Shown here piece by piece: positions 77-36,287 of a DNA stretch of 64,000 nucleotides. The position numbers and the translations under genes were made by a program. The stretch comes from Membranipora membranacea. Lineage: Eukaryota; Bryozoa; Gymnolaemata; Cheilostomatida; Membraniporidae. The stretch is taken from contig OU612069.1 of assembly GCA_914767715.1 (NCBI GenBank), forward strand, positions 17,915,387 through 17,979,386, read 5' to 3'. Each line of letters begins with the position of its first letter. The first letter of the stretch is position 1. The notes under the pieces are model-generated. The model was not told where the DNA came from and searched no databases. It saw only the letters and a list, made by a program, of their open reading frames with translations.

Positions 77-456
77 CTTTGCTAGACAAATCAGTTTCTT
101 CATCCTTACGGATTGAGAACTGAGCTGCCATGTTAACTATTGTGTTGTTTATCTCAACCTCAGATACATCGGGATCTTTAAAACACAAAAGTTTTAATTG
201 CTACAGGTGCATAGGCTAATGGGTAAGGTTGTGGACGAAATATTTTCATGTCAAAAGCATCAAATTAGCTTGAAATACAGACGTAAATCTTTGGCAATGA
301 TGGGCACAAATTTTTCAAAAGAATAGAGTAGATTTTAATTTGTCTCATTCCTATCAGGTTTACCGTGATGTATTGTTGTGTATGTCATGTCTTCAGTATT
401 TCCTCCAAGTAGTGAATCATTATCCCATAATTGGAAAAGGCTCTCACCTTCACCTA
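77..456 (-). CDS. Partial NHL-family receptor gene, copy A: two ectodomain module exons
   Basis: Two minus-strand exons can be defined by splice sites and by homology to other exons in the window. The first (456 down to 364, 93 nt) has an AG acceptor and a GTAAAC donor, phase 1 at both ends. It reads V-G-E-G-E-S-L-F...N-D-S-L-L-G-G...E-D-M and matches the exon at 31541-31630 in length, phase and donor position. The second (175 down to 77, 99 nt, phase 1-1, donor GTTGGT) is acidic with an N-N-T glycosylation site and ends D-L-S-S-K-G. It resembles the exons at 9240-9367 and 31811-31897. Module order here is the reverse of that in the 31-kb gene. No propeller exon is visible upstream within the window, and any downstream exons lie left of base 1. 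Gene fragment versus active gene cannot be decided. Confidence 0.5.
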
Positions 457-3400
457 CTACAATTACATACAGAGGAACTTTATTTTGCTGATTAATATAA
501 TCACATTGGATGAAAGAACAAGACAGCTGTAGAGAACTTGAGCAGATAACATTTTCATTTGAAAGCACAAATGTTTAGGTGCCTCAGGGTAATAAAAGTT
601 TCATGTTACGATTGCTGCTTCTCATATTGAAATAAATTAACAGCTATACCATTACAATAAATCTTACCTAAGCACTGTTCACTAACCTTAATTGGGATTG
701 TAGGCAGTCACATATGTCCATCCACGGTGCCACAAATGAAAGGCTTTAACATCTACCAATATTCCGCTACCAAGCTCACTACTAGAACCTCTATTCAATT
801 TGGCAAAAAATAAGAGCTAACACAGTCATAACCATTCATGTAACTAATTAGACAGTGTGTTGCCAAGTCACTATAATCTATCAACTACCAAGTAATTCAC
901 CTTTTTGCGTAGAGTACCGAAGATTGGTAATATTTTATTGCCTGTATATAAACAGCTGCCAAATTCAAATAGAAACCTTATCAGGGTGCAATTTGGTAAT
1001 GGTACAAAAAGGGTTCTGGCTTGAGGCATAATAAGTTATTTCTCATAAAAATTGTATATGCAAAAACTGTCAATTTATACTACCACCGAAGGATAAAAAA
1101 CTGTATTGCAACATCATTACTTGGTGGATTTAGCAGATGTCAGTTTGTTTACTAATGAGACAACCAGTTCATAAATGTGCTTGTGATTATTTTATAAATC
1201 ATTGACATCCTGTTGAAGTTCAACTGCTTCACTTGACCAAGCAGTTGTAGTTGGGTCTAATATATTTTAGTAGCTGATGGTTTTCCTCTCGCCAAAATTT
1301 CGAATTGTGGTCACATAAAAAAACTCAATACTCAACAAAATGCACCAGTGCGATTGCTTGAGTGTTTTAATTCGCTGAATCAACTACTACTCAATTGCAT
1401 GCCTTGTTATTCATTTTTTTGCATGTTGGCAAAAAACAATATATTGTTGCATATCTCTAGTTTCCATCTGGATTAATGGACCTATGGACGTAATGGATCT
1501 ATTGTGTTTAATATAACCAGCGATTCATTATAGGGCAGTGCAAATATTGTCAACCTATGATGCAACAGATAGGGAGGCTGCAGGTGGCTGCTCTTTTTGG
1601 TTGTGTCAATCAACCAGTCACAGTGAAATAGATTTTATGCTGACTAAATTACTCTTGTGAGCAAAAGATGCTGCCATCAACAAGCTCTTTTGTCAGCTGC
1701 CCTCTTCCCTCAGTTGAGTACAGGTGATGCAAAAAGAACAGGGGCTTGCTCAATTTATATGACTCATATTCATTTTCATACTATAGTAGAGATTAAATAT
1801 TTCAATTGGGAGATAGCCGATCAATTGATGCTGTCTCTTGCTATTGCATTGTTTTAAAAAGTCAACGCTCAACCGGAATAGTCCAACTTTATGGCAGCTC
1901 TCCGATCAATCTGTTTATGCAAAAAGTGATGGAAATGGACATCGATTAAAACACTTGGGACTTGGGTCGAAAAATCTGTTATACATTTTCTTCAAATTGA
2001 TTAGCAGTGAAGATTTTTTTGCTTTTCATATAAGCTCAATGATACAGTCTTACTCATCTCTTTGAAATCAGCAAAAAATGAGTATTAGCTGCACTCATCC
2101 ACCATCCAAGGCACCAATGTGATTTTATGAGTATTGTCATGACTATCTTTCTATCTAATCAATTTGTCAGTGATTCATTTTTTGCATGTCAGAAAAAGTG
2201 AAAAACTTATTTCTACAATACATGAGGTAGTGTACAAGAATGTTAGCCTAAGACAGAAATGTGGCCCAAACTTTGCTTCACCAATTTCGCAATAGACTGT
2301 AGTATTACTGAAAGCCCCTGATATTATATTCATATTACCCCAGAGTACACCACACTAACCAATATTTGCCGACCATTAAACTCTATGAACCAGTTGCCAT
2401 TTAGCTTATTTTGGAATGATTAACTTCGAGAACAAAATGCAAATAAGATGACGACTCTGGTCATGCAAGCAAACAACATAAAGAGTACATTGTCCCAATG
2501 ACAGAACAAGTTTCAATGGGTTTTGCAACTCAGAGATCAGATCAATTTCGATACAATACATTCAGATCTAATGATGAGTCATGGCTGTGTCACATATGTT
2601 AATATGCAAAAAGGACAAAGTAATTGTACCAACAGATGTCAAACCTAGACATAATATCTTTTGAATCATCACATATTGAGTTAATGACCCAAGCAAAATA
2701 AAGTTTTTTATACGATGACATGTAGGCCAGCAGCAGCACCTCACTATTGTTTCATTGTGTGTAAGGATGATGAACAGAGAAAATTAATAGCAAATAATCA
2801 AATGATATTTATTATTGTTTGGATTTTTGATGTGGTACTATTCCATAAGTGGGGCAATAAATAATGTTTTGCTAAAATTCTTTTCTGATGCAGATTCTAC
2901 AATATTTCTGCAGAACTAACTTGCAAAAGTTACTTGGCAACATTTAGCCAATCAAAATGGATAATTTTGAAGATTAGCCAATGACAGTGCAGAGCATTTT
3001 TGTTTATAAAAGATGGCCGCCAATCATGAGGCTTGCTGCATCAATTCCCACAACACAGAGCATATGATAAAATCCACTGATTAAATTGTCACAACAGCAA
3101 CTGGACAATGCTCTGAGCAAAGCTGAGGATTGGGTTTTGCTAGAAAAACAGCCTGAGCTGCAGGAAGCTACTGATATACTCTGGATCAGATAGATAAGCT
3201 ACCATCATAATGCATATGATCAATGAACTAAACCTTAGTTCATTGATATGATCATGGGATATATAATATTGTGATAGAATGGAGAATGATGACAATAGAA
3301 ATGAACATTCTTTCTATGCTCACAAAATCTGCTATCTGAGATTTGCTTAACAAAACTAGTAGCTGCACAGAAAGCCCACACCAGGAAAAATGTGAGTGTT

Positions 3401-3679
3401 AAGATGAATGATTGTGATAGTTTACTTCACTTTCAGGTTTCAATGTTTTTGTTTACTACAAGTAAATTTATTTGTTTATTTCATGAACATACTAGTGTCT
3501 CTTCTAGTACTAGTAGTAGCCTATCCTCATCCAATGTGTTTCAATGTGATGGTAGGTTATCAATATTATTAGAAAATCAATAATTTAAAAGGATTGGGTG
3601 TATGTAAAAAAAAATAGGTCTATGGAATTGTTGACCTTACTTTCAGCAAGGAGTAACTTCGCTATTACAGCTTACTCTA
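457..3679. other. No gene supported
   Basis: AT-rich sequence with only short chance reading frames on both strands. No splice-bounded exon, RNA gene or clear element was recognised. A few bases around 1441-1465 weakly resemble the tyrosine-tail exon of the NHL family on the minus strand, but the match is too short to use. Confidence 0.5.
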
Positions 3680-3810
3680 GTCCAAATCACAGGCCTTCTG
3701 TAGTTGGTGCAAGTCCAGTGGTCAAGGCCTAAGAGAGAAAAGGCCTCGACCACTGGGGCACTCGACCACTGGACTTGCACCAACTACAGAAGGACTGTGG
3801 TCCAAATCAC
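3680..3810. mobile_element. Small foldback element with flanking direct repeats
   Basis: The segment 3691-3799 folds on itself. The left arm starts CCTTCTGTAGTTGGTGCAAG and is met on the right by its reverse complement ending CAACTACAGAAGGA. Internal copies of a 'ccagtggtc' motif and its complement sit near the loop. The element is bracketed by an 11-bp direct repeat, gtccaaatcac, at 3680-3690 and 3800-3810, which looks like a target-site duplication although it is long for most DNA transposons. No coding capacity. The class is not assigned. Confidence 0.6.
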
Positions 3811-4979: not shown

Positions 4980-5460
4980 ATTGACATAGGTCACATTGCA
5001 GGTATGTGTTTTACTGCTGTATATATTCATTTGATACAGGCTTGTACCAACATCTACTTTCCAATTGGTCAATGAAGAGGATTTGTACCTCGAATGTATT
5101 TATCTATACTGGTTTTCACAGCAGGAAATACTCCTCTTTTTTGCTTTCCTTCTTGTTTACCCAGGTCATATTATTGTTGGTATTCACTTATTGTATTTTT
5201 ATGTAACAATTTTATATATGTTTGTACATATATCTCACCTTCCAATTAGCCATTGACTGGATTTTTACCTTGATAAAGAATGTATTATATCAATACAGGT
5301 TTTCCGTGCATTTGATAAGCACATTAGTTCGTCTTTCTTTGCTTTCCTTCACGTTGACACTGGTCACATTGTGGATATATATTTGTTTATACTGGTGTGT
5401 ACTTGTATTGCACCTCTCAATAAGTCAATAAAGAGGATCTGTTTGTGCCTTGGTAGATAA
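4980..5460 (+). repeat. Degenerate tandem repeat, period about 200 bp
   Basis: Three diverged units share landmarks in the same order: a 'ggtcacattg' or 'ggtcatatt' motif, a 'tatactggt' or 'gatacaggcttgt' motif, then 'cttccaattggtcaatgaagaggat' and variants of it (5058, 5240, 5418). The open frames here are by-products of the repeat. No TIRs or coding domain seen. Confidence 0.5.
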
Positions 5461-5699
5461 TACACATACAGAATGCTCATTAAAAAACGAAATTTTGCAA
5501 CTTTTTTGTCTTTTCTTAGCCTCTGTAGAAAGAATATGCACTCGGAGAGTTATGAGCTTTACATAATTGGATTCGCAGCGAAATTCGGGTCTAGTTTCAC
5601 TCAATTCTAGGTAACCCCAGAGAGATAATTATTATTAAATGCAATTTTTTGATCACTCATTAGCAAGAAGTTTCTGGACTCAACCTGTTTTTCGCATCT

Positions 5700-6895
5700 T
5701 AACAGTTTTTCACATCTTAACTGGATCCACCCTGTCCCCATATATTCCCAATTTATAATTAGACTGCTACTAGTTATTTTATAATAGGGTCTTCTTATAA
5801 AAAGATAATGAAAATCACATATGAAATTTGTTTATTTGTTATTCTGGAAAGGTTGCGCAAAACCTATTTTTATGCCACAACTGTGTTTGAGGGGTGTCTA
5901 CAATCTGTCTATAAAACGTCAATAGATGGATTTAGCAGTATGATATATTCTCAAAAACCACTCAAGATATGCATGATATTGATAAAAAAATTTCGATGAC
6001 GCCAATTCATTCTATGATCTTTGCCGAAAGAAGTTAAATGGTAAAAAACGCTCTATATACCCCCCTTTTCCACGTTTCTTACTTGGATCCGCCCCCTTTT
6101 GCCCCATTTGTAAAATAGTACATATGCGCCATCAGAACGGCCATAAAAAACTACCCCAGACAAAAGCGGTGGATGCTCATGTTTGAAGGCCGGTTTGCAT
6201 TGTACGCAATTGTGTGGATACCTTCAATGCGACAATGGCAGGAACGACACTCAGCAAGATGAGTATGACCAAACTACCGATGATGAAGACCTTGACCTTT
6301 AAACTAGTATGAATTTGCATCCTTTCTTTGTTTTGTTTTAGCAGTGATACTTATGTGCTCTTTAAAATAGCTATTAAATTCAAAATACATAGTCAGATTA
6401 CACGCTTTACCAGAATAAAACTTCATAAACGTTTACCAGTTTTTCACATCCCAACTGGATCCACCCCTTTCTCATATATTCTCAATTTATTATTACACTG
6501 CAACCAGATACTTTATGATGGGGTCTTTTTATAAACAATCATGAAAAATGACATGAGAAGTACATTTATCACTGTTATTCTTGCACGCTTACACAAAACC
6601 TATTATTATGCCGCAACTGTGTTCGAGGGGTGACTACAATTTGTCTGTAAAATGTCAACCATTGGGTTTAGCTGTATGATATTTTCCCAAAAACTACTCA
6701 AGATATGCATGATATTGATAAAAAAAATTCAATGACACTGCTTCATTCTATGAACTTTGCCAAGAGAAGTTAAATTGCAAAAAACGCCCTTTTAACCCCC
6801 TTTTCCGTGTTTCTTACTTGGATTCGCCCCTTTTTGCCCCATTTGTGAAATGGTACATATGCGTCATCAGAACGGCCATAAAAAACTACACCAGA
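5700..6895 (+). repeat. Diverged tandem duplication of a segment of about 450 bp
   Basis: The segment starting at 5703 (cagtttttcacatcttaac) recurs at about 6434 (cagtttttcacatcccaac). Collinear matches run through 'gggtcttcttata', 'gatattgataaaaaaatt', 'acccccttttcc' and 'catcagaacggccataaaaa', ending at 6159 and 6889. Spacing is about 730 bp. A stretch at 6160-6433 lies between the copies and is not shared. It has no recognisable gene. Confidence 0.65.
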
Positions 6896-6899
6896 TACA

Positions 6900-7869
6900 G
6901 TCTTCAATTTTCTCTGTTCAAGACACTTACGCAGATGTTATTTTTAGAGCCTTTTATGTATAGCCGCTGCTGGCCTAATGATGAAATGTCAACATAAACA
7001 AAGGCGTGAGTTTCAGTCATTCAAACGAAATTACCATGACTGACACTATGGTTAAATATGTTATATTTTTGTTCGTAACCTGAGACAAAGTTCAGCCATT
7101 TGATCTGATGTAACAAATTAGCATAATCTTCGGATTAGAATATGCACACCTAATAATGACTTCAGTCTGCAGTGAGACATAGAAAAGTCATATATAATGC
7201 AATTCGTAAAAAAAGAAGAAAATAATCACATCTTACCAAAAATGTCAGGTTTTGAGTGGAAATCAGCAACACAATAAATAAGAATAAAGGAAGCAAACTG
7301 ATGAGTGCACCTCAGGCAACAATTGAATTTATATCATTGTTTTCTGCTTTGTCTCGTCAGTAACATTTATTGAAAATAAATTAGGCCAAAAATAATGGTG
7401 ATTTTGCTATAAGAAAAAAAAGTAATGATAACGCTAGAAGACATGATCTTTTATGTGCAAGTTATTCCCAGTTTACTATTTATGAGTATTGGCACCCTGA
7501 ATACAACATAACTGCTAGGGTCATATAAACAGGTAAGAAATATAACAATATAGCAGAAGATTCTGCATTCTTGCCCTATGCAGTTTGTAGTGGTAATGAT
7601 TGTAATGCATTTTTGAATTCGCCATATTGTGGTGTTTTGGAAAATTGAGATAATATATGTAACATGGCCATAAAGTGTGCTACTCATTTATGATTAATAA
7701 TCATGTGTAGCAAAACTCATGTTAACTTTAAAATGTGACGCTAGTTTACTTTCTCATAAATTAAGCACTAGTTAAACGGAGACGGAAATATATATAAATT
7801 AACATTCAAGATAATAACATGTGACTGCTTGGTATGTACGTGAACAGATTAATGTGAGATACGATTAAA
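6900..7869. other. No gene supported
   Basis: AT-rich spacer downstream of the receptor tail exon that ends at 7870. Only short unsupported reading frames are present. Confidence 0.5.
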
Positions 7870-9367
7870 TTATATCACAGCATAAATGTGACCAACACAT
7901 GAGCTATCTTGAATTAGTGTTGCATACTCTGCTGCTTCTCTTTGAACAGGCTCGGTGTAGCTGGAATCTGCGATCTGAGATTCATGGTTAGGAGGCGGTG
8001 AGCTCCTGTAGTGGTATACTTACCACATTTTCATAATTTGGATCAGTCTCTTCTGCATTTCTCCCACTTTGAGAACTCCTGGAGAAAGAATATTATGAGG
8101 CGTTTGATATGAATTGACCATTGAATTCCATATCTGGAATAGCAACATTAGCTTTCTTTTGCCAAACGATGGGTTTGCAAAAATAGCCAGTCCCTAGTAG
8201 CATTCTGAAAAGCCCAAATCATCGATGTTGAATACATTTTATTACTTTCTGGTGTTTTGTAAAGAAGTCGATTTCTGAGGCTATATAATTCATTCTAATA
8301 GGGACAGCCAATCAGATCAAGGTCAGATGAGTCCATGTGTTAAGTGTTCTAACTGCATGATGTAATGATACTATTTCAATTCTATGAGAAGAGTTTAATT
8401 CTGTGGAATTGAATGATGGAGATTGTTTGTAAGCTGTAGGTCTCAAACTGTAATTATCAGCGGTATTTAAAATCCATGATGCAATTTACTCCTCGCAGTC
8501 TTCGCGAACAAAGAGTAAGAATTAACTTTCTCGTCAATAAAGGGTTTTCTGCTGTCAGAGTCGTTTCTTACTTGAAACACAACAGTTTGAATTTTGGCAA
8601 AAAAAGTGGGGGTTAGTGTATCCCTGAATATTTTACCTTTTAGCCCTTTGTGAGGATGTGGATTTCAGGCCTATGATGGTCAGTAAACTGAACACAAGAG
8701 ATGTCAATATAGCAACTCCGGATATTAGCACCAACTCCATGCATGTTAGACTTTTTGCTGTAAATATACCTGAGTTAGTTTTGATGACAGTCTTATTTGA
8801 AGATTGCCTAGCTCCCTGTGTTGCTCCAATGCTTGCAGTGAAACTACCCTCATAAAAATATTGTTGTAACACATGCATATTTGGCAGCATTTGCAAGCAA
8901 TCACAAAGCAAGGAGTTTGATATGGCAATTCTTTGACCAAAGCTGCTACTTTTGAATAAGGATTATCAATCTTCAGGTTCACCAATAATTTGTGTTCATA
9001 AATTCATCCTGTTATGACTGTTTCACGCATATACTCACAGAAAATTCTTTCCAGGACCATTGTCTGCATTGGCATGGGGTTTTGACATGCTCAAAGCCAG
9101 TTTGAAGCCTGAATCAGATGGCATTTCCCCTAGCATTGAGGAGTGGTGACATAGTGAATCAAATTATCTGACCTTGATTCATTTTAATTTGTTTGTAAAG
9201 TTTTCCCAAATGTCATGCAGTGAATAAAATAAAACTGACCTTTCGAAGAAGTCGAAGAATCAGTTGCTTCATCCTTGTGATTTGAGAATAGTGCTGTTGT
9301 GTATGGTAATGTGTCATTGACTATCATCTCGGTTGCATTAACTTCTTCAAAACGAAACAATATTTCT
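7870..9367 (-). CDS. Partial NHL-family receptor gene, copy B: module, transmembrane helix and tyrosine-motif tail
   Basis: Four minus-strand exons can be read. Exon 9367-9240 (phase 2 in, phase 1 out) is an acidic module with N-A-T and N-D-T sites ending S-S-K-G, like 77-175 and 31811-31897. Exon 8757-8637 (AG acceptor, donor GTAAAA) encodes one hydrophobic helix, ELVLISGVAILTSLVFSLLT, then basic S-S-Q-R-A-K-R, a type I membrane anchor with a stop-transfer signal. Exon 8078-8024 and exon 7974-7870 are separated by a 49-nt intron with GTAAGT donor, CTAAC branch-like motif and CAG acceptor. They encode the tail with N-Y-E-N-V, S-Y-T-E-P, E-Y-A-T-L-I and a final H-I-Y-A-V-I before TAA. Phases agree between the helix and tail exons. 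The link between the first exon and the helix exon is not resolved; an exon near 8840-8965 may exist. No propeller exon is found upstream before the 425-bp array. Confidence 0.6.
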
Positions 9368-9832
9368 CTGCATCAAACGAAATTAAAAATGCACTATTGC
9401 CATGCGGTATATTTTATGTTATGTTTATGGTATGTTTCATCATAACATCCTTTAGACAGAGAGAACAACCGGGATTCTCATTATATCAGAGAAGAAGAGA
9501 GTTGGAGGGGTTTGCAGACAGCTGATATGAATGGCTACACCCTGGTTGAACACACAAATGTCTTAAACGTCAAAGTTTTGTAATCTAGTTGATCAACATT
9601 AAGCGTAAGTTAGGAAGATCCTTGCATGCGTGTCAATATATGACACTCTGCTGGATTAAGGTAAAACATAGTTATGTGAGCAAAAAAAAGTTGGAGTTTT
9701 CCACCCAATCTTAGTGTGTGGACAACTCCCTTTGTTATTATATGTAAGCCACGCCTACATAAAGAAGTTGTCCAATTACAGTGCAGCACTGATGTTAATT
9801 TTATTTTTGTATCAGATGTCGTCAGTATAGTT

Positions 9833-12800
9833 AGGAGAGGTATACACCCGAGGGTGCTGGGGGCTGGAACAATCAACAATGAAAGCTCCCCCAGTGGGGC
9901 TCGAACCCACAACTCCTGCGGCACTAATCGCCTGGCAGTGAATAGCAAGCGCGCTAACCGATTGCGCCATCTCACCATCCCCAAAAAAAGAATGGGTCGA
10001 TGGCGCTAATTAGATAGCCCGCTATTCACTACTCGGAGTTGTGTTCTCTCATCCCACAGCACATTCCAATCCACCATTGCCACCCTATGAAACACAGCGT
10101 ACGTGTTAGGGTTATTGGCCTTACATGGCCCATTGCTGGGACCCCTTGTAGTAGGTTTAGCTGTCTTTCCAGCTTGTCAGCATGTCTTTCCATGCTGTCA
10201 CATGTCTTTCCATGCTGTCACATGTCTTTCCATGAGTCAGTCAGTAGACAAGTACACAGGAGAGGTATACACCCGAGGGTGCTGGGGGCTGGAACAATCA
10301 ACAATGAAAGCTCCCCCAGTGGGGCTCGAACCCACAACTCCTGCGGCACTAATCGCCTGGCAGTGAATAGCAAGCGCGCTAACCGATTGCGCCATCTCAC
10401 CATCCCCAAAAAAAGAATGGGTCGATGGCGCTAATTAGATAGCCCGCTATTCACTACTCGGAGTTGTGTTCTCTCATCCCACAGCACATTCCAATCCACC
10501 ATTGCCACCCTATGAAACACAGCGTACGTGTTAGGGTTATTGGCCTTACATGGCCCATTGCTGGGACCCCTTGTAGTAGGTTTAGCTGTCTTTCCAGCTT
10601 GTCAGCATGTCTTTCCATGCTGTCACATGTCTTTCCATGCTGTCACATGTCTTTCCATGAGTCAGTCAGTAGACAAGTACACAGGAGAGGTATACATCCG
10701 AGGGTGCTGGGGGCTGGAACAATCAACAATGAAAGCTCCCCCAGTGGGGCTCGAACCCACAACTCCTGCGGCACTAATCGCCTGGCAGTGAATAGCAAGC
10801 GCGCTAACCGATTGCGCCATCTCACCATCCCCAAAAAAAGAATGGGTCGATGGCGCTAATTAGATAGCCCGCTATTCACTACTCGGAGTTGTGTTCTCTC
10901 ATCCCACAGCACATTCCAATCCACCATTGCCACCCTATGAAACACAGCGTACGTGTTAGGGTTATTGGCCTTACATGGCCCATTGCTGGGACCCCTTGTA
11001 GTAGGTTTAGCTGTCTTTCCAGCTTGTCAGCATGTCTTTCCATGCTGTCACATGTCTTTCCATGCTGTCACATGTCTTTCCATGAGTCAGTCAGTAGACA
11101 AGTACACAGGAGAGGTATACACCCGAGGGTGCTGGGGGCTGGAACAATCAACAATGAAAGCTCCCCCAGTGGGGCTCGAACCCACAACTCCTGCGGCACT
11201 AATCGCCTGGCAGTGAATAGCAAGCGCGCTAACCGATTGCGCCATCTCACCATCCCCAAAAAAAGAATGGGTCGATGGCGCTAATTAGATAGCCCGCTAT
11301 TCACTACTCGGAGTTGTGTTCTCTCATCCCACAGCACATTCCAATCCACCATTGCCACCCTATGAAACACAGCGTACGTGTTAGGGTTATTGGCCTTACA
11401 TGGCCCATTGCTGGGACCCCTTGTAGTAGGTTTAGCTGTCTTTCCAGCTTGTCAGCATGTCTTTCCATGCTGTCACATGTCTTTCCATGCTGTCACATGT
11501 CTTTCCATGAGTCAGTCAGTAGACAAGTACACAGGAGAGGTATACACCCGAGGGTGCTGGGGGCTGGAACAATCAACAATGAAAGCTCCCCCAGTGGGGC
11601 TCGAACCCACAACTCCTGCGGCACTAATCGCCTGGCAGTGAATAGCAAGCGCGCTAACCGATTGCGCCATCTCACCATCCCCAAAAAAAGAATGGGTCGA
11701 TGGCGCTAATTAGATAGCCCGCTATTCACTACTCGGAGTTGTGTTCTCTCATCCCACAGCACATTCCAATCCACCATTGCCACCCTATGAAACACAGCGT
11801 ACGTGTTAGGGTTATTGGCCTTACATGGCCCATTGCTGGGACCCCTTGTAGTAGGTTTAGCTGTCTTTCCAGCTTGTCAGCATGTCTTTCCATGCTGTCA
11901 CATGTCTTTCCATGCTGTCACATGTCTTTCCATGAGTCAGTCAGTAGACAAGTACACAGGAGAGGTATACACCCGAGGGTGCTGGGGGCTGGAACAATCA
12001 ACAATGAAAGCTCCCCCAGTGGGACTCGAACCCACAACTCCTGCGGCACTAATCGCCTGGCAGTGAATAGCAAGCGCGCTAACCGATTGCGCCATCTCAC
12101 CATCCCCAAAAAAAGAATGGGTCGATGGCGCTAATTAGATAGCCCGCTATTCACTACTCGGAGTTGTGTTCTCTCATCCCACAGCACATTCCAATCCACC
12201 ATTGCCACCCTATGAAACACAGCGTACGTGTTAGGGTTATTGGCCTTACATGGCCCATTGCTGGGACCCCTTGTAGTAGGTTTAGCTGTCTTTCCAGCTT
12301 GTCAGCATGTCTTTCCATGCTGTCACATGTCTTTCCATGCTGTCACATGTCTTTCCATGAGTCAGTCAGTAGACAAGTACACAGGAGAGGTATACACCCG
12401 AGGGTGCTGGGGGCTGGAACAATCAACAATGAAAGCTCCCCCAGTGGGGCTCGAACCCACAACTCCTGCGGCACTAATCGCCTGGCAGTGAATAGCAAGC
12501 GCGCTAACCGATTGCGCCATCTCACCATCCCCAAAAAAAGAATGGGTCGATGGCGCTAATTAGATAGCCCGCTATTCACTACTCGGAGTTGTGTTCTCTC
12601 ATCCCACAGCACATTCCAATCCACCATTGCCACCCTATGAAACACAGCGTACGTGTTAGGGTTATTGGCCTTACATGGCCCATTGCTGGGACCCCTTGTA
12701 GTAGGTTTAGCTGTCTTTCCAGCTTGTCAGCATGTCTTTCCATGCTGTCACATGTCTTTCCATGCTGTCACATGTCTTTCCATGAGTCAGTCAGTAGACA

Positions 12801-13221
12801 AGTACACAGGAGAGGTATACACCCGAGGGTGCTGGGGGCTGGAACAATCAACAATGAAAGCTCCCCCAGTGGGGCTCGAACCCACAACTCCTGCGGCACT
12901 AATCGCCTGGCAGTGAATAGCAAGCGCGCTAACCGATTGCGCCATCTCACCATCCCCAAAAAAAGAATGGGTCGATGGCGCTAATTAGATAGCCCGCTAT
13001 TCACTACTCGGAGTTGTGTTCTCTCATCCCACAGCACATTCCAATCCACCATTGCCACCCTATGAAACACAGCGTACGTGTTAGGGTTATTGGCCTTACA
13101 TGGCCCATTGCTGGGACCCCTTGTAGTAGGTTTAGCTGTCTTTCCAGCTTGTCAGCATGTCTTTCCATGCTGTCACATGTCTTTCCATGCTGTCACATGT
13201 CTTTCCATGAGTCAGTCAGTA
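9833..13221 (-). repeat. Array of eight 425-bp tandem units with tRNA-like cores
   Basis: The period is exactly 425 bp, with unit starts at 9833, 10258, 10683, 11108, 11533, 11958, 12383 and 12808. The last unit stops about 11 bp short. Units are nearly identical: I saw single changes near 10695 (tatacaTccg) and near 12022 (gtgggActcg). Each unit holds a tRNA-like block, a short A-run on the plus strand, a unique segment, and three internal copies of a 'catgtctttccatg' motif spaced 21 bp. The array is bordered by the 8-bp direct repeat GTCAGTAT at 9821-9828 and 13215-13222. The long reading frames in every unit are artefacts of the repeat. The homogeneity suggests recent amplification or ongoing homogenisation. 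Confidence 0.9.
9885..12951 (-). ncRNA. Eight tRNA-like Pol III promoter blocks (one per 425-bp unit)
   Basis: Read on the minus strand, each block is 92 nt: 9885-9976, 10310-10401, 10735-10826, 11160-11251, 11585-11676, 12010-12101, 12435-12526 and 12860-12951. The A box TGGCGCAATCGG fits the eukaryotic consensus at every fixed base. The B box GGTTCGAGCCC fits with one pyrimidine choice, and the sixth copy reads GGTTCGAGTCC. D-stem (GCGC/GCGC) and T-stem (GTGGG/CCCAC) pair well. The acceptor ends (GGTGAGA against TGGGGGA) do not pair, and no good anticodon stem is visible. This is therefore a tRNA-derived promoter (SINE-head type), not a working tRNA. On the minus strand the next long T-run, seven Ts, lies just upstream of the neighbouring block. 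Confidence 0.7.
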
Positions 13222-13558: not shown

Positions 13559-14009
13559 GCCTTTATTACATCCAGTATCCATAGGCATATGCCTGCTGAA
13601 ATTGGCATTATTATCATTTTCTTATTGAGACGTTCCAGTTAGTGACCATATGCCTATCAATAAATAAGGCCCACTGCAGCTTGGCATATTAAGTCTCGTG
13701 GTTGGGGCCACTAGCTAGTTGACTTGCACAGCAATCTGCAGGTGATCCGTGAGATTGCAACAAAGAAGGTAGTGTAATGACTGCTCTAGCCCCAAACAAC
13801 ATTTAAAAAAAGGCCTATTTGTGGTATGTTGAGTCAGATCAGTTCAACCAAGGAATTCTCCTTGGTTCAACTTATTACAGAATAACAGTGATCATGACAG
13901 CATTATTTTGTGTTTGAAGCAAACCCCAACAGGCCTAGCTAGCCCATCCTGACACCTACTAAGCTTCATTCCATAATCCATTACATTCAATGCATTCAAT
14001 TTTGGGACT

Positions 14010-14384
14010 GTTAAATCACAGACAGCAGGTCACTGACAGTTGATTTGATGAGTTGCAGCCTTGTGTGTGTGTGGTTTGTGTTTGTTGTGGTGAAGATGGG
14101 AAGCTTGCATGAACCTAGTTATCGCGGCTGTGGAGCTTCTGTACCCGCCAATTACGTTGCTCAGACGAGTCACTTCTCTCTCATTGGTGAGAAGTTAATA
14201 TTCTGATCAATGAGAGAGAAGTGACTCATCTGAGCAACGTAATTGGCGGGTACAGAAGCTCCACAGCCGCGATAACTTGGTTCACGCAAGCTTCCCATCT
14301 TCACCACAACAAACACAAACCACACACCCACAAGGCTGCAACTCATCAAATCAACTGTCAGTGACCTGCTGTCTGTGGTTAAAT
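14010..14384. mobile_element. Long inverted-repeat (foldback/MITE) element with 7-bp TSD
   Basis: The element 14017-14377 is almost entirely two arms of about 165 bp that are near-perfect reverse complements, around a loop of about 30 bp at 14181-14211. Termini are CACAGACAGCAGG and its complement. Both ends are flanked by GTTAAAT (14010-14016 and 14378-14384). Differences between arms are few: for example 'catgaacct' faces 'ggttcacg', and the GT run is longer on the left. No transposase. A long hairpin transcript would form if it were transcribed. Family uncertain: termini beginning CA and a 7-8 bp duplication are compatible with a hAT-type non-autonomous element. Confidence 0.75.
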
Positions 14385-15850
14385 TGACATAATTATGAAT
14401 AGGGGCAACACAATGCAATTATAATCATAAGTATACAGTCAATTGGTAGGATGAAAAGGAATACTCAATTCAGTTTATAATTATATAGTAACATAACTGG
14501 GACCCAAAACACAGCGTGCTACGCATGTTTGCTAAAAGTTAACCAACCAATGCTGTGAATGTATTGGCGTAGATACAATAGGCCTAATTGAGCAAAGTTG
14601 GTTTTGAAGTACTTCAGCAGCTTATCTTGACTATGGCTTAGCTTGTCAATACAGGCTAAGGTTGGCCTCAATCCACTCTCTCCTCCATCATTGTCATCAC
14701 ATTTGCCGATTTTTTTGGGTTGTTGCTGGCAAAGAGGCGTAGTGGTAATTTCTAGGTCCTTTTAATATTTCTTGGGCACTAAGGCTACAGTGAATAGAGT
14801 GATTTACAATCCAGTTAAAATTGCATCACGCATACTATTCCGAAAATAAAATTTAGCAGTCCTAAAATTTGGTCTGTTCATCATGTAACATTTGCTTCTG
14901 TCGTGAGGTTGGGATTACACCTCGAACTAAACATCTTGCTCGAGTCAGAGTTAGTTTACTAGCCATATCTACGGAATTTGTGCAATTTATGTAATAGTAT
15001 TATTCATAGTTACTCTAGTGTTCAGAAGTAGACTTGTTGTTAGTGTGGATCTAACTGAAACAAGCACATTAGGTCGATCTTAATGTAGTCCCAGATTAAC
15101 TCCAAACCATGTCTACACTTTGTGTGATTCAGGATCAGAAGTAGCCCAGTTGATAAAGCACCGGTCTCACAATCGCAAGGGATCAGACTCTTGAACACTA
15201 AGCCCAGCTGACCGAAAATCTAATTACATGCTTTCCACAACCAGTCGCATTAGCAACAATTCTGTTCTGTGCTGGTGACCCAAAATAGAAAAGTTTTATT
15301 ATCTATTACCAAGTATCCTGATATTATCTGACGTTACCTCAGGTAGATATGGGAAAACTTGTAATGAATGATCTCCCCACAATGAATAGCAGACCCTTCA
15401 CTATGGAAGTGCTCAGTATTTTTTGAAAAATGTTGAGGATAGCTAAATTCTGGGTTAAGTTGGCTTAATAGGTCTAGTAACATCATTAAACACAAACCCC
15501 AGAATTGTATTCACATGCTATTTGCACCACAGAGTTTCCATCATAGTTCATTTCACTTTTTTTTTTATAGTCTTAATGTTCTTGTTTATAGATACTAACT
15601 CAAGTCAAAGAACCGTGGCGTTAATAGGGATACCCACCTAACGAGACCATAGCTATGAAAGGTGAAGCATCTGTTGAGGCTCGACTTTCACTCCAGCATG
15701 TTATAGCTATGTTATATGCTAGTTCACTCTTAGGAATTACGGTTGGTGCGTTACCTCCCATCAGTTACATGACTTCAAACTTTTCCATCACTCACAACAT
15801 AATATATTTATATTTCAACCATTGTTGCCTATTTTTTTATATAGAATAGA
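14385..15850. other. No gene; one tRNA-like remnant inside
   Basis: Mostly featureless AT-rich DNA. Positions 15134-15210 (plus strand) hold a decayed tRNA-like piece with an A box at 15142-15153 (tagcccagttga) and a poor B box near 15180 (ggatcagactc). It is probably an old SINE head. Confidence 0.45.
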
Positions 15851-15859
15851 GGATTGTCA

Positions 15860-17600: not shown

Positions 17601-17672
17601 TGAAGAAGATAAAAAATAACCTAGACTGAATAAGTTGATAAAAATGTATTTATCCTAGTTTTTGAGACTAGC

Positions 17673-20600: not shown

Positions 20601-21399
20601 GTACTGCAATTTGGTACAGCAAAATTTAAAACATAGTGCAACATGCCTTTTATTTCTATATGAATAATTGATATGGGAAAATGGGCGTTGACTTATTCTT
20701 ATTCAAATTCAATACAAGTGTTAGCCCTTGCAACTATCATAAATCAAGATTGGCTAATGGAAGCATACCTGTGAGGCATTCAGTGTTTTTCCGTCTTTCG
20801 CTTTCAACCCAGCATGTCTCGCTAACCTACTCCACCTTCTGTTCATTCTGTCACTCAGATCCTTATTCTCATCTGCCTGTTCTTCCAACTCAGTTCGTAC
20901 TCTGTCTCTGTCAAAAGCGTAGCTGTCCAACGGTCCGATGTGAGCTTTTTTAGCGTGTTGTACGTGCGTGCTGTGAGCCGCCATCCGTTGCCTCTCATAG
21001 CTTGATACTGACATTGTCTCACTAAACAGAGCCCGCTTGTTAGGTTGTATCAGATCCTTGTCCTGCTCCTGTCTTGACTCCTTGATAATTTGTTTTTTGA
21101 TATTGAGAGGAATGTTGTTAACTGTTAGTCGCTGTTGTGGTGTTCTCTCATTGTGTTCAATGCTTACATTGATTGGCTGCAGAGCTTGAGGTGTTCGAGC
21201 CTCCGAGGAAAGAACAGTTCTTGTAAATACAATATTTATTTTTTTTAGCTTGAACTCAGGATGGCTTTTAACACACTCCTTGCACTTGAGTACTACATGG
21301 CGAATTTTATCAGTTCGATGAAGCTGGTTCCAGGACTCTGTTGAAAATGCCTCATGGAAGTCTTTCATAGAAGAAGCAGTGGAGTTCTCAAAATGTTTC
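17673..21399 (-). CDS. Nine-exon gene of unknown function, 5' end not found
   Basis: Exons on the minus strand: 21399-20769, 20546-20465, 20188-20015, 19900-19745, 19625-19563, 19380-19318, 19162-19064, 18461-18390 and 17947-17673. Each junction has GT/AG borders and the reading phase carries through all nine, giving about 537 residues and a stop. Exons four to eight are all phase 1 at both ends. The first exon is basic and polar, with a C-K-E-C pair near its start and a charged segment R-T-E-L-E-E-Q-A-D-E-N-K-D-L. Exon four has C-H-C...C-H-Y-C, a possible zinc site. Exons five to eight are short acidic pieces (for example E-D-S-D-E-E-E-D). The last exon is basic and helical (L-A-K-Q-L-Y-I-K-K-H-Q-E-V-K-Q). 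I recognise no family. A nuclear protein or a domesticated transposon protein are both possible. An extra 5' exon may lie near 21650-21720, but its phase does not fit. Confidence 0.65.
18575..18640. repeat. GC-rich dispersed repeat, copy 1
   Basis: The segment 'tagtctgagccccccagac' followed by 'tttgccccctgtccgacggc' closely matches 60218-60266. It stands out against the AT-rich surroundings and ends in an inverted 'agtctgag'. Likely ends of an unidentified interspersed element. It lies in an intron of the unknown gene. Confidence 0.45.
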
Positions 21400-23390
21400 C
21401 TGTAGCAAGGAGGAAGAAAATCTCTGTTTACAGTAGGTACTAAACATATAAAATTTTATGTATCATAAGGTTCATAATGAAAATTGAATCACAGAGTGAG
21501 AATATGCAGAGGGGATACTTCAATGATAGTCATAGTCTCTTTAGTTTGTGATTGGGGGGGGGGGGGGGCTTCGTCAAGCTAGCTACATTCAAGATTTACT
21601 AATCATGTAAATTACAATGGTAATTTGTCATGCATACATACCTACCTATGATAGACCAAGTTTTGTCCATTTGCCTGCATTCGAAGTTCCTCCCCATCCA
21701 CTGGTCACGCTGCAGCGTGACCAGCGGAAAGGAGCAACTGGAATACAAGCAATTGGATTAAACTTGATCTAACCTATGGCGGGCATAATATTGTTGACAT
21801 TAATCATGACAACTCACTGGTTTGCAACTTTTTTGTAATGTCCACATTTCAACCTATACGCACACCATATAATTGTCATTTTGGCTAGGTGAATAGGCTA
21901 TGAGTTATTTGGGGTAACAAAATAAGTCATATCATAAAGATTTATGTGTGAGCTGAGTCAGTACACGGACATTTCCTGAATTTGTTGCCCAAGTCTATCA
22001 ACTGTCAAGACATAAATATCTATGTGAGATAACCTATTTCAAGAACCCATATAACTCGGTGCCTATGTATCCTAGCCCAAAATACCAACAATATGGTGTA
22101 GTTTGAAGGTTGGACGTTTTACAAATGCTGGAAACCAGTTTTTAGGATAAGTATCAAACAAGTTATGGCTCATCATAGGTAGGTATGTCTGCAAGAAAAA
22201 GGCCACTGTAACATATAGAGATGACAAGCTGTACACAACTTTCCCCTAGCTAATCCAAAATCCACAGACACTATAACTATCAGTAATTTCCCCTGTGTCT
22301 GTATATCCCTGCTATCACTACTGTAACCAGGCCTAGTGAAGAAGGTGTGAAATATCCCAGTAATAACAAAACCTAGTTGGCTGTATGCTATGTATGTATT
22401 AAAAAAGGGCTTGTATGAGAATATCCCACAATGCAATTTATTGGGAATTCCTCATAAACATAGAAATGGACACTACAGGCTAAGAGCGTCCTCCTAAATC
22501 AGTGCTTCCCTCATGACGCAAAGTTACTGTCCTATCCACTTTGGTTGTGGCATCGCAATGATTCATGATATGCAAGCTCATGGAGATTTTCTCATTCTGA
22601 AACAATGTGACTAGCAATTTAGACAGAAAGATGGTTTTAAAGGTATCAAATGAAATATACTCTTTTCACGTAGTCATGTCAATGTATAAAAGTGTCTCAT
22701 TTACATTACAAAATTTTCCCAATATTATGCTTACTGTCAGTTCATTAGGCCAGTTTGGGCAGAGCCGAGGCATATCATGTCTTCAGACTTTTCATCTTAA
22801 TTGCAATGACCGATCACAAAGCTGCACTCTATGGAGAAACATGTTGCAGACTTTAGTCCCTGGACAATTTCATAGATATTGGCACAAGAAAGAGTATATA
22901 TATATATAGGTACAAACTGATTGGATACACAGCTTTTTAACCATCCCTCCTCCACCACCACAACCACCGAGGGAACAAACTTGTTCTATAGATATCACCC
23001 GTAAACAACTGTGGAGATCAAATTATCTAAAGTGCCATGCACTACACAGCGATCAAGGTGACTTGGTTGTGTTGTAACTCCTGTGTCTCTCGATGATTGC
23101 TGAGACTTTTTCCTTTTCCTAAGTTCACCATACTAAAATTCCATCGAGAGCCAAGAGCAAGAACCATGAAGAACAAAGACTTAATGTTCTGAGCTCAGAT
23201 TTTAAGCATTTAGCTGACAAAAATACATTTGAAATTAAACCTTACTGAAAGACCATCAGTGTTTCCCATCTTTGGTTTACATATCTGACAGCTGGAAAAA
23301 TCAGATGCAGTTAATCAAGTAAAATGTTGAGCAAAACCTTAAATTTTCAATCGGCGATGCACCATTTTTTGAATACAAATGCTATAGGCC
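21400..23390. other. No gene supported; poly-G run and a perfect palindrome
   Basis: Contains a run of 15 Gs at 21554-21568 and a 24-bp perfect palindrome at 21701-21724 (half-site CTGGTCACGCTG). Reading frames are short and lack splice context. Confidence 0.5.
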
Positions 23391-30713: not shown

Positions 30714-33427
30714 CTATCCTGACGTCTGGTTTCCTGCTGGCAGTTGAGGACTGAACGAGCCCTCCGTCTCATTTGCCTGAGGTATACTGATATGTGTGTC
30801 TTGCATTTTGTTGGATGTGACAATAGGCTGCTTGCAAATAATAAATCCAGAAATATTGTGCTCCCACACATTCCAGTGGGCAGTATCAGCTTCTGCAATT
30901 ACACTACATTACACTAATTAGGCTACATGTACTACTACAGTTATTTGCGAGAGGGGTTATAGAGAGACATCTCATTATTAACCCAGTTACCAGTTGCTGA
31001 GTAAACCCAGACTGGTCACAAAGTTGATAATACTCCGTTTAATATTCAGCGTATATTTCATATTGAGTCTATGAGCTTCAACCGTCCTGCACTGTATCAG
31101 TTTGATACGCTTGACCGATTTCAATGGCAGGTCTGCCTTATAAGTCTGCTCGCAGGTGCTTATATAGAATTATAATGTAATACGTTTTCCTGGTGTAGCT
31201 TGCAATAAAATGAATTTTTTTTAGAAAAACATTTTGATCCTTGTTCGGCTTTTTCTAACGAGTAGATCGGTATGAATAAAAAAGTTAAGGTAAGAGAATT
31301 ACAGAGGGGGGCAAATGTTTTTCGCTAGATGATAATATATACAAAAATGCAGGAGAGGCAGATAGGAAAATTGTACACAACGTGGGGGAGATAAGCCGTA
31401 ACTCATAAATTACCTTAAACCAGCAGAGCAAGCACTGATATGCTGTCAATTTTTGTACACCCTTGACGCTGAAATGTAGAAATAAGTGCTGCAAATAATT
31501 TATAAACAACATCATCATGAAATAAAAGTGACAATGTTACCATCGTTTAAAATCTCCATCATGTGTTCAGTATAATCTCCGAGAAGTGAATAATTACCAT
31601 ATGGAAGGAAGAGGGGCTTGCCTTCAGCTACTAAAATCACAAAGTAAATTATTTCATAGATGATGAGTGCTTCTAGAATGATCAATGTCAGGTCGATTTG
31701 TGTGCGTAATGGCTCCCTTTAAGCGTATCCAGGTCGGCCAGCTAGCTAACTCTTGCAAACACACACTCATTATTGAGATTGGTAAATTGGACACCAAAAT
31801 ATATACTCACCATTTTTATCAGTGATCAAATTCGTAACATCCGAGACTTCATTGTTGGCAATGGGGTCATCAGGAGTTCCACTTAAACCATTTTTTTCTA
31901 CAGAAGGTTAAATCATAATTCCTTGCCTACATGTTAAACTCACCTGTCACTGCTCTTATGTGGTTTTGTAAATCATCAGAAATATAGAGAGTACTGCCGA
32001 TGATTGCTAGAGACTGAGGTTTGTTGTGTTCACAAGAGCTTAGGTTGCTTAAAACATATTCCCCCAAAGCTGGACATATTTTGAATGTCTGATTGATTTT
32101 TAAATCTATCAATATTAATCTTTCTTCATATGGGGATGAGACCAAGATAAGTTGATCAGAAATAATGGCCATACCATTCAACCTAGTTCTGTTTGTCATT
32201 AGGATCATGTCATATGGGCTGTATTCTTCCTGCCCTGCTATTGTGATTGACTCATTTCTCACTCGATCATATCTCACTACACTATCACTGGTCAGCATAT
32301 ATATGTATCCACATTTTGGCCTTTGTATCAGTTTATAAATGGGCACATGATTGTATCTAAGTGTTTGCGCAACTGGTTTTCCAAGAAACGTTACTGACCG
32401 CAAAGTGAGGAAGTCACATACCAACAACTGGTTCTCAAATTGTTGATCAATAATCACGGCACTGGGCCGAAAAAATATTGGATCATCTCCATCTTTGACA
32501 CTACCGAAAACTTCTGTACAGTTGCCAGTAAAATGAGAAGTCATCGAAGTCCTTCTATCTAAACGGCGTAAACAATTATTCCTTTGATCTGCTAAGATCA
32601 CCGTAGATGCAGTAACTTGTGCAAAACCAGATATGCAAAAGAACTTTGCTGTAGTTCCTACTCCTTCGGCATATCCAATATATCTTGAACCAACAATTGT
32701 CGATTTTTTGTCCCCATTTGCTGTCCATAATTTGAACTTGTCCGAGAAAAGCAAGTTTCCAGGTGTGAATTGATCGGTCTCAATGTGAAATATCCTATGT
32801 GATGTTTTTGTGAAGCTAGTCACATTAGCATCCCCATTCAATCTGTAATTTATAGAATGACATAATATATTGAGTGAGATATCAGGATTTACTTATTGAT
32901 CAGGGTAACCTCTAAGTTAGATCTTCCACACCTTAGGCAACTAACTGATATTTTTCTCAAAGTCAGAATTGTGATAATATGTTGATATTGAATATGCATG
33001 CGGACTAAATAATGATCACTTACCTATATTCTAAGGCTTTTACAATACAAATAGATAAGAGGCCGAAGATGGCAGCACCCAGTAGCCCCTGTAAGGAAGG
33101 AAGTATAGGGGTATACAAATCAACCTGATTTGTTGACCGTTCACAAAACCTTCAACTCATAAATGCTCAACAATGTAACTGTGTTATTGTAGGTGATGTG
33201 TGTTGTTATTTCTATATTATATTGTATTGTAAGTCATTATCCCTATATCCCTGTCAAAGGGCCAAGATAAAAATTGCTAATATTGGTCACTAGGATAGAT
33301 TTTGAGAGCCTGGGTGTTCTTGATTTGGCAATGGTATGGATGTTCAGCGTAATGGCTTGCCTAATCTGTCAAACTCAACGTAAACATATACATATCCCAC
33401 AGCAGCTTCACTTACCTTTGATGGCAT
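30714..33427 (-). CDS. NHL beta-propeller receptor-like protein, copy D (signal peptide, propeller, modules; 3' end unresolved)
   Basis: Exons on the minus strand: 33427-33416 (start ATG, M-P-S-K; this exon has an AG acceptor at 33531, so 5' UTR is likely), 33088-33024, 32842-31944, 31897-31811, 31630-31541, and probably 30892-30714. Phases agree at every join (0, 2, 1, 1, 1). M-P-S-K-G-L-L-G-A-A-I-F-G-L-L-S-I-C-I-V-K-A is a good signal peptide; the start was chosen for this reason, since the upstream in-frame stretch lacks another clear start. The 899-nt exon encodes about 300 residues with NHL-type blades, such as V-I-L-A-D-Q-R-N-N-C-L-R-R-L-D, N-Q-L-L-V-C-D-F and L-Y-I-S-D-D-L-Q-N-H-I-R, and several N-glycosylation sites. 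Known NHL propellers bind protein or nucleic-acid partners. An extracellular site follows here from the signal peptide. The small exons match modules of copies A and B. A membrane helix and tail were not found at this locus. Confidence 0.65.
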
Positions 33428-33851
33428 TATAGTCAGCCTGTTCCTTCCAGCACCAGCATTCAATCGAGCAGCCAAGGCTCCGCTCAAATTAATACCACCA
33501 ATATTGTGCCAAAAGATGTGATCGCCCTCATCTATTTGAAATGGGCAAAAAATGAAAATTAGCCGCAAATATCCAGAATATTTTCCTTGAGAGGGTGTTG
33601 AGTCTGTCGTCATTTGTTATCTTTTGTATGATCGATGTTTGCAAAAAGTGGTACATCATTTTATTGCAGAGTTTTATAAAACAGTACATGAGATACTGTA
33701 AACAAAGAATCCCTCCTTTTATTGAGGTTTGGCCCATAATTTAACATAGAAACATCTTTCAATGGCCTGTAGTGTTGCTGCTTACATAATGATGGTAAAT
33801 TTTTAGGCATCAGAGGCCCCAACACTAGCCAAATGCATTTGGAGCCGATCA

Positions 33852-34046
33852 TTAATTTTTGTAATCCAGTTTGTATTGATGGGCGCTATGGATTTGGAGC
33901 AACTGACTAACGATAACAAAACTAACCATCATTGTCACAGGAAAAATGAAAAGTCGGATGATTTCAGCAAAGGTACCACATATGAGCTGATGTCCTGTTT
34001 GAATTTCACAAGTGGCAATAAATGTTTGATCAATAATTAGAGCCAT
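33852..34046 (-). pseudogene. NHL propeller fragment
   Basis: The minus-strand reading A-L-I-I-D-Q-T-F...H-Q-L-I-C-G-T-F-A-E-I-I-R-L-F aligns with A-V-I-I-D-Q-Q-F-E-N-Q-L-L-V-C-D-F-L-T-L-R of the 32-kb propeller exon. The remaining blades are absent, and the continuation is a hydrophobic stretch unlike the propeller. Probably a decayed piece of another copy. A separate open stretch at 34416-34625 has no supported identity. Confidence 0.35.
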
Positions 34047-35261
34047 TGCATTGTGTTAGAACTGAGACCACAGATGTGCAACCAGGATATTAAATGCAAT
34101 TTACACCAGTTACTTGGCCTTAACGGATAAATGTTTTTAATGATGAAGTTATCATGTGAAAACCAGAAGGCTGAAGTATTTGGAGTAAGTGTCTAATATT
34201 AATGTGCAGAAACTGATTTGACTGGTCATTCTATGAACAGAGACATCATGCAGCTGGAATTGATGGACGGAAATGGCTTGCGCCTGATATGCTGGCAATT
34301 TTATTTTTATAATTTGTTATAAAAGGAAGAAAAGGACTCATTGATCTCGTAACAAACAAACAGAAATATATAGGCAGCTAAAATTGGCGGCAATCTAGTT
34401 TACCCGAAATAATATCTAATGATCTTTTTTGACATTGTAGGCGGTCCTTAATATCCATCCATAGTCACCTACATGAACAGTTTTCGTGTCTACTAAAGGC
34501 TGCATCAATGCTATGATCAACGATGGCTGACTCTTAATCTGTTGGATGAGGCAAAAAAAGAGTGCAGCCTCAGCTGTCACATTTAATGACACCAAAGGGA
34601 CTGTATGAGAGTTACTACATACCATATATCTTAGTTCATACCAAGTGATTCAGATTTTTGCCTTGCGGCCAATATTTGGTTTTATGATGTGCAAAAAATA
34701 TCAAGCTAATTGCACTTCCCACAGATGTTGAATTTGAGATGAACCACCACATAGATAATTGATTATCCTAGCAGATATCATTTTTTTGTTGTTGAGGCAT
34801 TCAATTTAAAATCATCCCATTTGCATCCTGGTAAAGTCAGCTAATTTGCCTGTCACAAGCTGTTCAGTGTTATCCCTTCTAAGTTTATAAGCAAAAAATG
34901 ATTCAAAGGATCTGACAGAATAAACAAAGGCAGAAAACCGATGAGTTTGAGCAAAATACTTGTGGCTGAAGCCGATGGTGATAACATCAGCGGGATCATG
35001 TATTTTGTTTCTCAGTAATATTTATTGAAAGTTACTCATGTTACTTGCATCTTATATTGTCTAACAGGGGTGTTTTGTAACTAAGAATATGCGATTCCCA
35101 AAAATGTATGACATATTATGTGCTATCTGTATCTATTTCTGATGTTCTTACATCAATTGAACACAACATCAGTTCAAGGAGAAGCTGGCGTAGAGGGTTA
35201 CAAGCAGTAATTGTTTCTCAGAACTCACTGTAGCTATTATTCAAACTGCAGACTATGAAAT

Positions 35262-35778
35262 TTATATACCAGGGGTGCCCAACCTTTTCTCTCACATGAG
35301 CCATTTCAAAAATCAATTAAACCAAATGAGCTGACCACGTCGCATGTTGACAACATGGAAACAGTCAGTGATATATATGTATCATATTCATTCATGTATA
35401 AGTGTTGGCAAAAATTCCAAAGCAAAGTCATTGTGTGAGATTAAAAAATTTTGAGGCAATTTCTGGTCATATAAGGCGCCCTGGAGTTTTGTAAGCATTT
35501 TAAGCATTTTGCAAATTTTTGTAAGCATTTTAGAAAATTTAGGTTGGCAAATCTGCAAGAAGACAACTCTACACACATATTACAATGCAGGCACCCAGTG
35601 TAATGAACTTGTATACACTATACATACATTTAATGTACATTGTACATGCATGAATTGAACGCATGAAATTCGCGCCAAAAAGCGCGTGAAATTTGCAAAT
35701 ATTAAAATGAGCCACCCAAAAAGCCAAAATGAGCCGAGGTGGCCCATGAGCCATAGGTTGGGCACCCCTGATATATAC
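35262..35778. mobile_element. hAT-like non-autonomous element
   Basis: Terminal inverted repeats CAGGGGTGCCCAACC at 35270 and its complement ending at 35770, of the type known from hAT elements. They are flanked by nearly identical 8-bp sequences, TTATATAC (35262-35269) and ATATATAC (35771-35778), fitting the 8-bp hAT target duplication. The interior is 501 bp without a transposase and has 'atgagcca' near both ends. Overlapping minus-strand frames inside are not genes. Confidence 0.8.
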
Positions 35779-36083
35779 TATACTGGCTATGACATGTACT
35801 GGAGTAATGTCTAGCGATGCGATGTGTAGTAAGGTAGAAAATTTGCCTTTGTGGACTAAGAACTATGCACACAGTTATATGATGTATTGGTGGTTATGTT
35901 TGTAACAATATTGTAATACAAATACTTGTAATATGAATTTGTTGGTTCCATTCAACTTATTTCTGTGTTCCTGTGTTCTTATTCTCGGAATTATCGGAAT
36001 ATGTCGATAAAAATTAAATCTTAGACAGTCTTAATAATACAAATTTATCGTAGAACATGTGGGTGAGTAGATTGGTATCATCA

Positions 36084-36287
36084 TCAATTCACGCTTATCG
36101 CAGTATAAACATGTCTGTCTGGTGAGATGTCATGAATAAGTGTTGCATATTCTATAGATTCTATTTCCACAGGACATTTGGAGAGAAATGATTTGAGTGC
36201 TGCTGGATACTGACTGACAATTCTTCCGGAGCTACAACTTCGTAATGGGAATTGCCTACTGTTGCATTGCTTCCTCTGACCGATGAC
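36084..36287 (-). CDS. NHL-family receptor tail, copy C: two tyrosine-motif exons
   Basis: Exon 36287-36211 (phase 2 in, phase 1 out) and exon 36160-36084 are split by a 50-nt intron with GTATCC donor and TAG acceptor, the same place and size as the 49-nt intron of copy B. The first reads S-S-V-R-G-S-N...N-S-H-Y-E-V-V; the second reads S-I-E-Y-A-T-L-I-H...H-V-Y-T-A-I-S-V-N then TGA. The two tyrosines are 14 residues apart, as in copy B, giving YxxL-x10-YxxI. Upstream, a minus-strand piece ending G-K-T-K-R with donor GTAAAT at 36403 matches the end of the copy B helix exon. The helix itself is replaced by a minisatellite, so this copy is probably broken. Confidence 0.6.
   Translation of the reverse strand, partial: VIGQRKQCNSRQFPLRSCSSGRIVSQYPAALKSFLSKCPVEIESIEYATLIHDISPDRHVYTAISVN

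Follow-up and report, generated by a model that had tools for sequence, protein, structure and literature searches.

The stretch analysed here (hereafter the window) comprises 64,000 nt of the genome of the bryozoan Membranipora membranacea (contig OU612069.1, positions 17,915,387 to 17,979,386). Its minus strand carries what appears, from exon order and sequence likeness, to be a tandem head-to-tail group of paralogous genes encoding candidate membrane receptors with an NHL propeller and a tyrosine-motif tail. Gene B, in the middle, appears complete; gene A, upstream, was recognised by its tail only, and gene C, downstream, is represented by two stalk exons and cut by the window end.

All of the pieces listed in the original prediction, a note made from the sequence alone, were found on the minus strand and nearly where it had put them. 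Exon borders were picked by hand from the sequence and then located by script, and the refined exons have AG/GT borders (Table 1). The signal peptide and propeller assigned to 31944-33427 were resolved into three exons, and the ectodomain modules at 31541-31897 and 77-456 into two each. The tail at 7870-8078 consists of two exons 49 nt apart, and the module at 9240-9367 is kept with a refined border at 9365. The helix with stop-transfer at 8637-8757 remains a single exon, and the hydropathy scale supports its helix.

Table 1. Exons assigned to the three paralogues, in window coordinates
Feature	Position	Strand	Description
Gene B exon 1	33416-33427	minus	start exon (ATG, MPSK); phase 0 at its end, reading on in frame into exon 2; donor gtaagtga
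Gene B exon 2	33024-33088	minus	predicted signal-peptide hydrophobic core GLLGAAIFGLLSICIVKALEY; ends in phase 2; acceptor ttccttccttacag, donor gtaagtga
Gene B exon 3	31944-32842	minus	whole predicted NHL propeller (299 amino acids), not split by introns; phase 1 at its end
Gene B exon 4	31811-31897	minus	stalk module; phase 1-1
Gene B exon 5	31541-31630	minus	stalk module (phase 1-1), paralogous to 364-456
Gene B exon 6	9240-9365	minus	stalk module (phase 1-1), paralogous to 77-175; acceptor is second AG of cagag
Gene B exon 7	8637-8757	minus	the one predicted transmembrane helix, followed by a basic stop-transfer; phase 1-2
Gene B exon 8	8024-8078	minus	predicted cytoplasmic tail, DPNYENV; phase 2-0
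Gene B exon 9	7870-7974	minus	predicted cytoplasmic tail with EYATLIQDSSCVGHIYAVI and stop
Gene A tail exon 1	36211-36287	minus	SSVRGSNATVGNSHYEVV...; 3' border uncertain
Gene A tail exon 2	36084-36160	minus	IEYATLIHDISPDRHVYTAISVN and stop; 5' border may lie at least 13 nt further upstream
Gene C stalk exon	364-456	minus	counterpart of gene B exon 5; phase 1-1
Gene C stalk exon	77-175	minus	counterpart of gene B exon 6; phase 1-1; 188 nt after the preceding gene C exon

Concatenated, the nine exons of gene B give 519 codons and a stop, uninterrupted from ATG to TAA. Exons 1-8 end in phases 0, 2, 1, 1, 1, 1, 2 and 0, and introns 1-8 measure 327, 181, 46, 180, 22,175, 482, 558 and 49 nt. If the long fifth intron is accepted, gene B has every part of the receptor, and the earlier statement that no one locus does so falls. 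The propeller frame (exon 3) is open for 321 codons; the longest frame in 60 simulated 64-kb windows of matched nearest-neighbour make-up was 191.

That the pieces are paralogous, as had been proposed, was borne out for three exon pairs by both protein and DNA. The pairs were found among many repeat-derived pairs in an all-against-all comparison of open fragments: 338-574 with 31518-31718 (expectation value, E, 8e-5), 9187-9372 with 9-200 (E 1e-4) and 7873-8019 with 36087-36287 (E 1e-3). Their best DNA matches (E 1e-10, 7e-6 and 5e-7) lie within the exons or run 11-13 nt past them. Aligned in frame, the pairs have 12 of 24, 12 of 30 and 14 of 26 residues in common; in two of them conservation is lowest at third codon positions, but only narrowly. 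Likeness is weak (8 of 18 residues, E 1.3) in a fourth pair, made up of the first tail exon of A (36211-36287) and that of B (8024-8078).

The tail of gene A can be spliced in two ways. With a 50-nt intron HYEVV is kept; in the other reading, made by eye, the last exon would begin further upstream, in the 13 nt over which the DNA likeness to gene B runs on, and HYEVV would be lost. YATL...YTAI is unchanged under both. A splice-phase and hydropathy scan that recovers the gene B helix exon found no gene A helix exon in 36288-41390. For gene C, no propeller was recognised between 456 and 7870, upstream of its stalk exons; some copies may thus be broken or carry a different head. A stretch at 1634-1485, the sole hint of that propeller, was dropped (E 12).

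The 22-kb gap between exons 5 and 6 of gene B contains repeats of its own. A tandem array at 9833-13221 has eight copies of a 425-bp unit that are 99% alike. Eight tRNA-like matches at the Rfam gathering score fall on its minus strand, and ARAGORN (bacterial code) calls none; the array looks like an amplified tRNA-derived element. At 13994-14400 lies a 200-nt inverted repeat with arms 92% complementary and 7 nt between them, perhaps similar to a miniature inverted-repeat transposable element.

Predicted ectodomain, membrane segment and tail

By sequence comparison the propeller carries an NHL repeat signature, with repeats at 81-133 and 297-325. Its structure model is a complete six-bladed propeller that matches solved NHL domains, at middling confidence (mean predicted local distance difference test score, pLDDT, 59.7); other fold matches include the LDL-receptor and LRP6 propellers and the sensor domain of mycobacterial PknD (E 6e-7). 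Signature and predicted fold both suggest that the ectodomain is mainly an NHL-repeat six-bladed propeller. An ectodomain of immunoglobulin (Ig) type was not indicated: Pfam listed no Ig family for the whole gene B chain up to E 10.

Database searches added little. The propeller had three protein matches, one named as bacterial and two without a name. A profile of the propeller and these three retrieved 350 proteins (120 of them among the matches listed), with E-values driven largely by those three, so that the count is no evidence for the propeller. The names among these matches are bacterial or come with no organism, so that missing animal relatives in the protein collection mean little. Sequence searches of the PDB gave an irrelevant best match at E 2.1 and, in a second search, nothing at E 1. 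Among viral contigs a pattern was matched by 22 stretches, none of them a relative.

Two hydrophobic stretches were found in the gene B chain, one N-terminal and the other spanning residues 429-460, by the Kyte-Doolittle scale, which is not a trained predictor (19-residue windows above 1.6, starting at residues 1-7 and 429-442). The basic sequence KSTSSQRAKR directly follows the second. All nine N-glycosylation sequons lie in the predicted ectodomain (residues 32-401) and none in the tail; at least nine ectodomain sequons arise in 1.6% of 5000 shuffles. Gene B thus has, on a hydropathy scale, the features of a type I single-pass protein: a signal peptide, one helix, a basic stop-transfer and a cytoplasmic tail. 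The domain and membrane checks that the original prediction had proposed, run on the reconstructed chain, gave the predicted signal peptide and single helix but no NHL match in Pfam.

The immunoreceptor tyrosine-based activation motif (ITAM) is YxxL/I, a spacer of 6-8 and YxxL/I, or a spacer of 6-12 in a wider definition; the corresponding inhibitory motif (ITIM) is [SIVL]xYxx[ILV]. YATL and YAVI stand 10 residues apart in the tail of gene B, and YATL and YTAI have the identical spacing in gene A. By chance the paired pattern appears in 0.8% and 0.7% of 20,000 shuffles of the two tails. Tail B also carries YEN, which may be an SH2 site of the Grb2 type. For the whole gene B chain Pfam gave only SIT, an SHP2-interacting adaptor, which fell on the helix and tail at E 0.062, below cut-off.

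Proposed receptor and competing readings

We favour, at a probability of about 0.58, the reading that the tandem paralogues encode type I receptors with an NHL propeller outside the cell, a paired YxxL/I tail inside and SH2 signalling. The original prediction of such a chain gains support from the two hydrophobic stretches, the ectodomain-only sequons, the fold matches and the motif pair kept in paralogue A. Exons, frame, order and propeller homology, with the predicted fold and hydrophobic segments, are likewise read from the sequence and its models. The signal peptide would be cleaved, and the six-bladed propeller would bind an extracellular ligand. A glycosylated stalk would be encoded by the short phase-1 exons, one helix would span the membrane, and a tail of 60-70 residues would bear the YxxL/I pair with its spacing of 10 residues. 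In the step we favour, a Src-type kinase would phosphorylate the two tyrosines when the receptor binds its ligand or clusters. The phosphorylated pair would then recruit a tandem-SH2 protein, either a Syk-type kinase if the receptor is activating or an SHP-type phosphatase if it is inhibitory. We infer from this architecture a single transcript across the 22-kb intron, a surface location, ligand binding, and phosphorylation with its readers.

Several results weigh against this reading. PF01436 (NHL) was unmatched in Pfam scans of the propeller frame, the helix frame and the whole chain; NCBIfam gave no NHL match for the gene B chain (best E 0.11, irrelevant), and the propeller exon alone found none of 447 candidates in the protein collection at E 0.1. 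In the structure model pLDDT is below 50 for 86 of the 299 propeller residues, the alignment behind it was composed of NHL proteins, which biases it towards an NHL fold, and modelling from the sequence alone gave nothing usable (mean pLDDT 32.9). The intron between exons 5 and 6 would measure 22,175 nt and holds, on the same strand, a 233-amino-acid open frame (20757-21455, minus) longer than the longest simulated frame (191). At exon 6 the first AG of cagag shifts the frame into a stop, so that the second AG is needed. In the tails, the strict ITIM pattern is present in A (IEYATL, SHYEVV), where a match arises in 27% of shuffles and proves nothing alone, and absent from B (AEYATL), and the spacer of 10 in both exceeds the textbook ITAM and fits the wider definition only. 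With a strict ITIM in A but not B, and a spacer suited only to the wider ITAM, the receptor may be either activating or inhibitory.

The main rival to phosphotyrosine signalling is endocytic sorting by the same tyrosines. Gene B would then be an endocytic or scavenger receptor, for which its architecture is right, with YxxPhi sorting signals read by AP-2 and a propeller for cargo binding and release. Each tail has three YxxPhi motifs, a type that shuffled tails often carry too (one or more in 49% and 58% of them), and LDL-receptor and LRP6 propellers stand among the fold matches. Sorting signals need no exact motif spacing, however, and the spacer of exactly 10 is kept in both paralogues; the YEN of tail B also points away from sorting, though YxN turns up in 18% of shuffles of that tail. 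We consider this reading unlikely.

It is quite unlikely, in our view, that two genes are involved, in which case 33427-31541 would encode a propeller protein that is secreted or truncated, exons 6-9 (9365-7870) would be what is left, at the 3' end, of a further tandem copy that has lost its 5' half, and the in-frame join would be fortuitous. The 22-kb gap with another probable coding frame, the poor acceptor that exon 6 requires and the lack of a recognised propeller upstream of the gene C stalk exons all suit such a division. The 233-amino-acid frame is probably coding and looks like another gene or element; seven of the many open frames in the gap were compared with Pfam and none matched at the curated cut-off, and this frame had no Pfam match. 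A host gene there would make a single transcript less likely, and a mobile element would make an intron enlarged by insertions natural. Against a division, none of the gene B pieces recurs within the gap (best E 0.18), and gene C joins its equivalents of exons 5 and 6 across 188 nt, the only direct support within the window for the 22-kb junction. Phase agreement across that junction is a weak argument: ends that have nothing to do with each other would match about one time in three, and the acceptor was chosen to fit. A decaying pseudogene cluster with no working protein seems improbable: A and C are fragments in the window, the splice of the gene A tail is ambiguous and its helix exon was not found, but gene B runs through 519 codons without a stop, its exon borders are intact, and gene C is cut by the window end.

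Other features of the window

A Bel/Pao-type long terminal repeat retrotransposon occupies 41391-49431 (plus strand); its single 1811-codon frame (42657-48092) is matched by the Pfam Pao peptidase, integrase zinc-binding and other families. Its repeat-like ends lie near 41391-41916 and 48835-49431 (translated pieces 87-100% identical). Paralogous frames at 58915-59739 and 63241-63999 (plus strand) are 57% identical over 209 amino acids, with signal-peptide-like starts and threonine-rich linkers. Neither has a Pfam match at cut-off; their C-terminal part recalls the D8C domain of uromodulin. Probable arginyl-tRNA synthetase exons lie at 51700-56437 (minus strand), with PF00750 above cut-off in two of three frames tested. 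A direct duplication at 5653-6994 has copies about 740-780 nt apart, whose translated pieces are 49-87% identical.

Relation to known receptor families

LDL-receptor family members resemble the predicted gene B product in being type I receptors that have both a six-bladed propeller and tail tyrosines, and were listed among the fold matches. They combine YWTD repeats with EGF and LDLa modules, whereas Pfam finds no YWTD, EGF or LDLa in the gene B chain, and no NPxY was seen in its tail by eye. The PknD sensor domain is likewise the extracellular propeller of a membrane protein, but PknD is a bacterial serine/threonine kinase of opposite topology. The NHL-domain proteins NHLRC2, TRIM2/3/71 and Thin are intracellular and have no signal peptide or membrane helix; gene B is predicted to have both. 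Teneurins are much larger and carry a YD shell. Their extracellular NHL propeller is described, in the passages concerned, on a type II chain with EGF and other domains (PMC6422961, PMC6428715), unlike gene B with its N-terminal signal peptide, a helix near the C-terminus and no EGF family listed by Pfam.

In the sponge Halichondria panicea, a figure legend on the receptor repertoire names NHL repeats; the receptor classes listed are G protein-coupled receptors, SRCR, CTLD, NLR and TIR, and that section has no mention of ITIM/ITAM tails (PMC8242945). NHL in receptor-like proteins of early animals thus seems not unheard of, and this counts against novelty. The combination of an NHL propeller with an immunoreceptor-type tyrosine tail, which the original prediction did not know as a described family, was not found as one in searches of open-licence papers either.

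The overall plan of gene B is that of the fester co-receptors (FcoR) of Botryllus. In the passages of PMC12065747 that deal with them, they are type I proteins of 520-610 amino acids with a signal sequence and one membrane domain, and several of their genes share one locus; their tails carry ITIM, hemITAM or YxxI/L/V motifs, and Hydractinia Alr candidates carry such tyrosine motifs too. FcoR ectodomains consist of Ig and sushi domains, in contrast to the NHL propeller of gene B. FcoR and Alr also belong to an allorecognition context, whereas for the present group neither polymorphism nor allorecognition is in evidence. It is possible, if doubtful, that the group represents an undescribed, tandemly expanding animal family of immune-type or self-recognition receptors, in which an NHL propeller replaces Ig domains and signalling is of ITAM/ITIM phosphotyrosine type. 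Unrelated allorecognition receptors, from cnidarians to mammals, are argued in the relevant part of PMC12065747 to converge on the same ITAM/ITIM signalling. If our reading is true, the gene family would be directly testable (expression, copy-number and allele variation, SH2 binding), and a member built on a propeller would clearly add to the examples of such convergence, with a non-Ig ectodomain.

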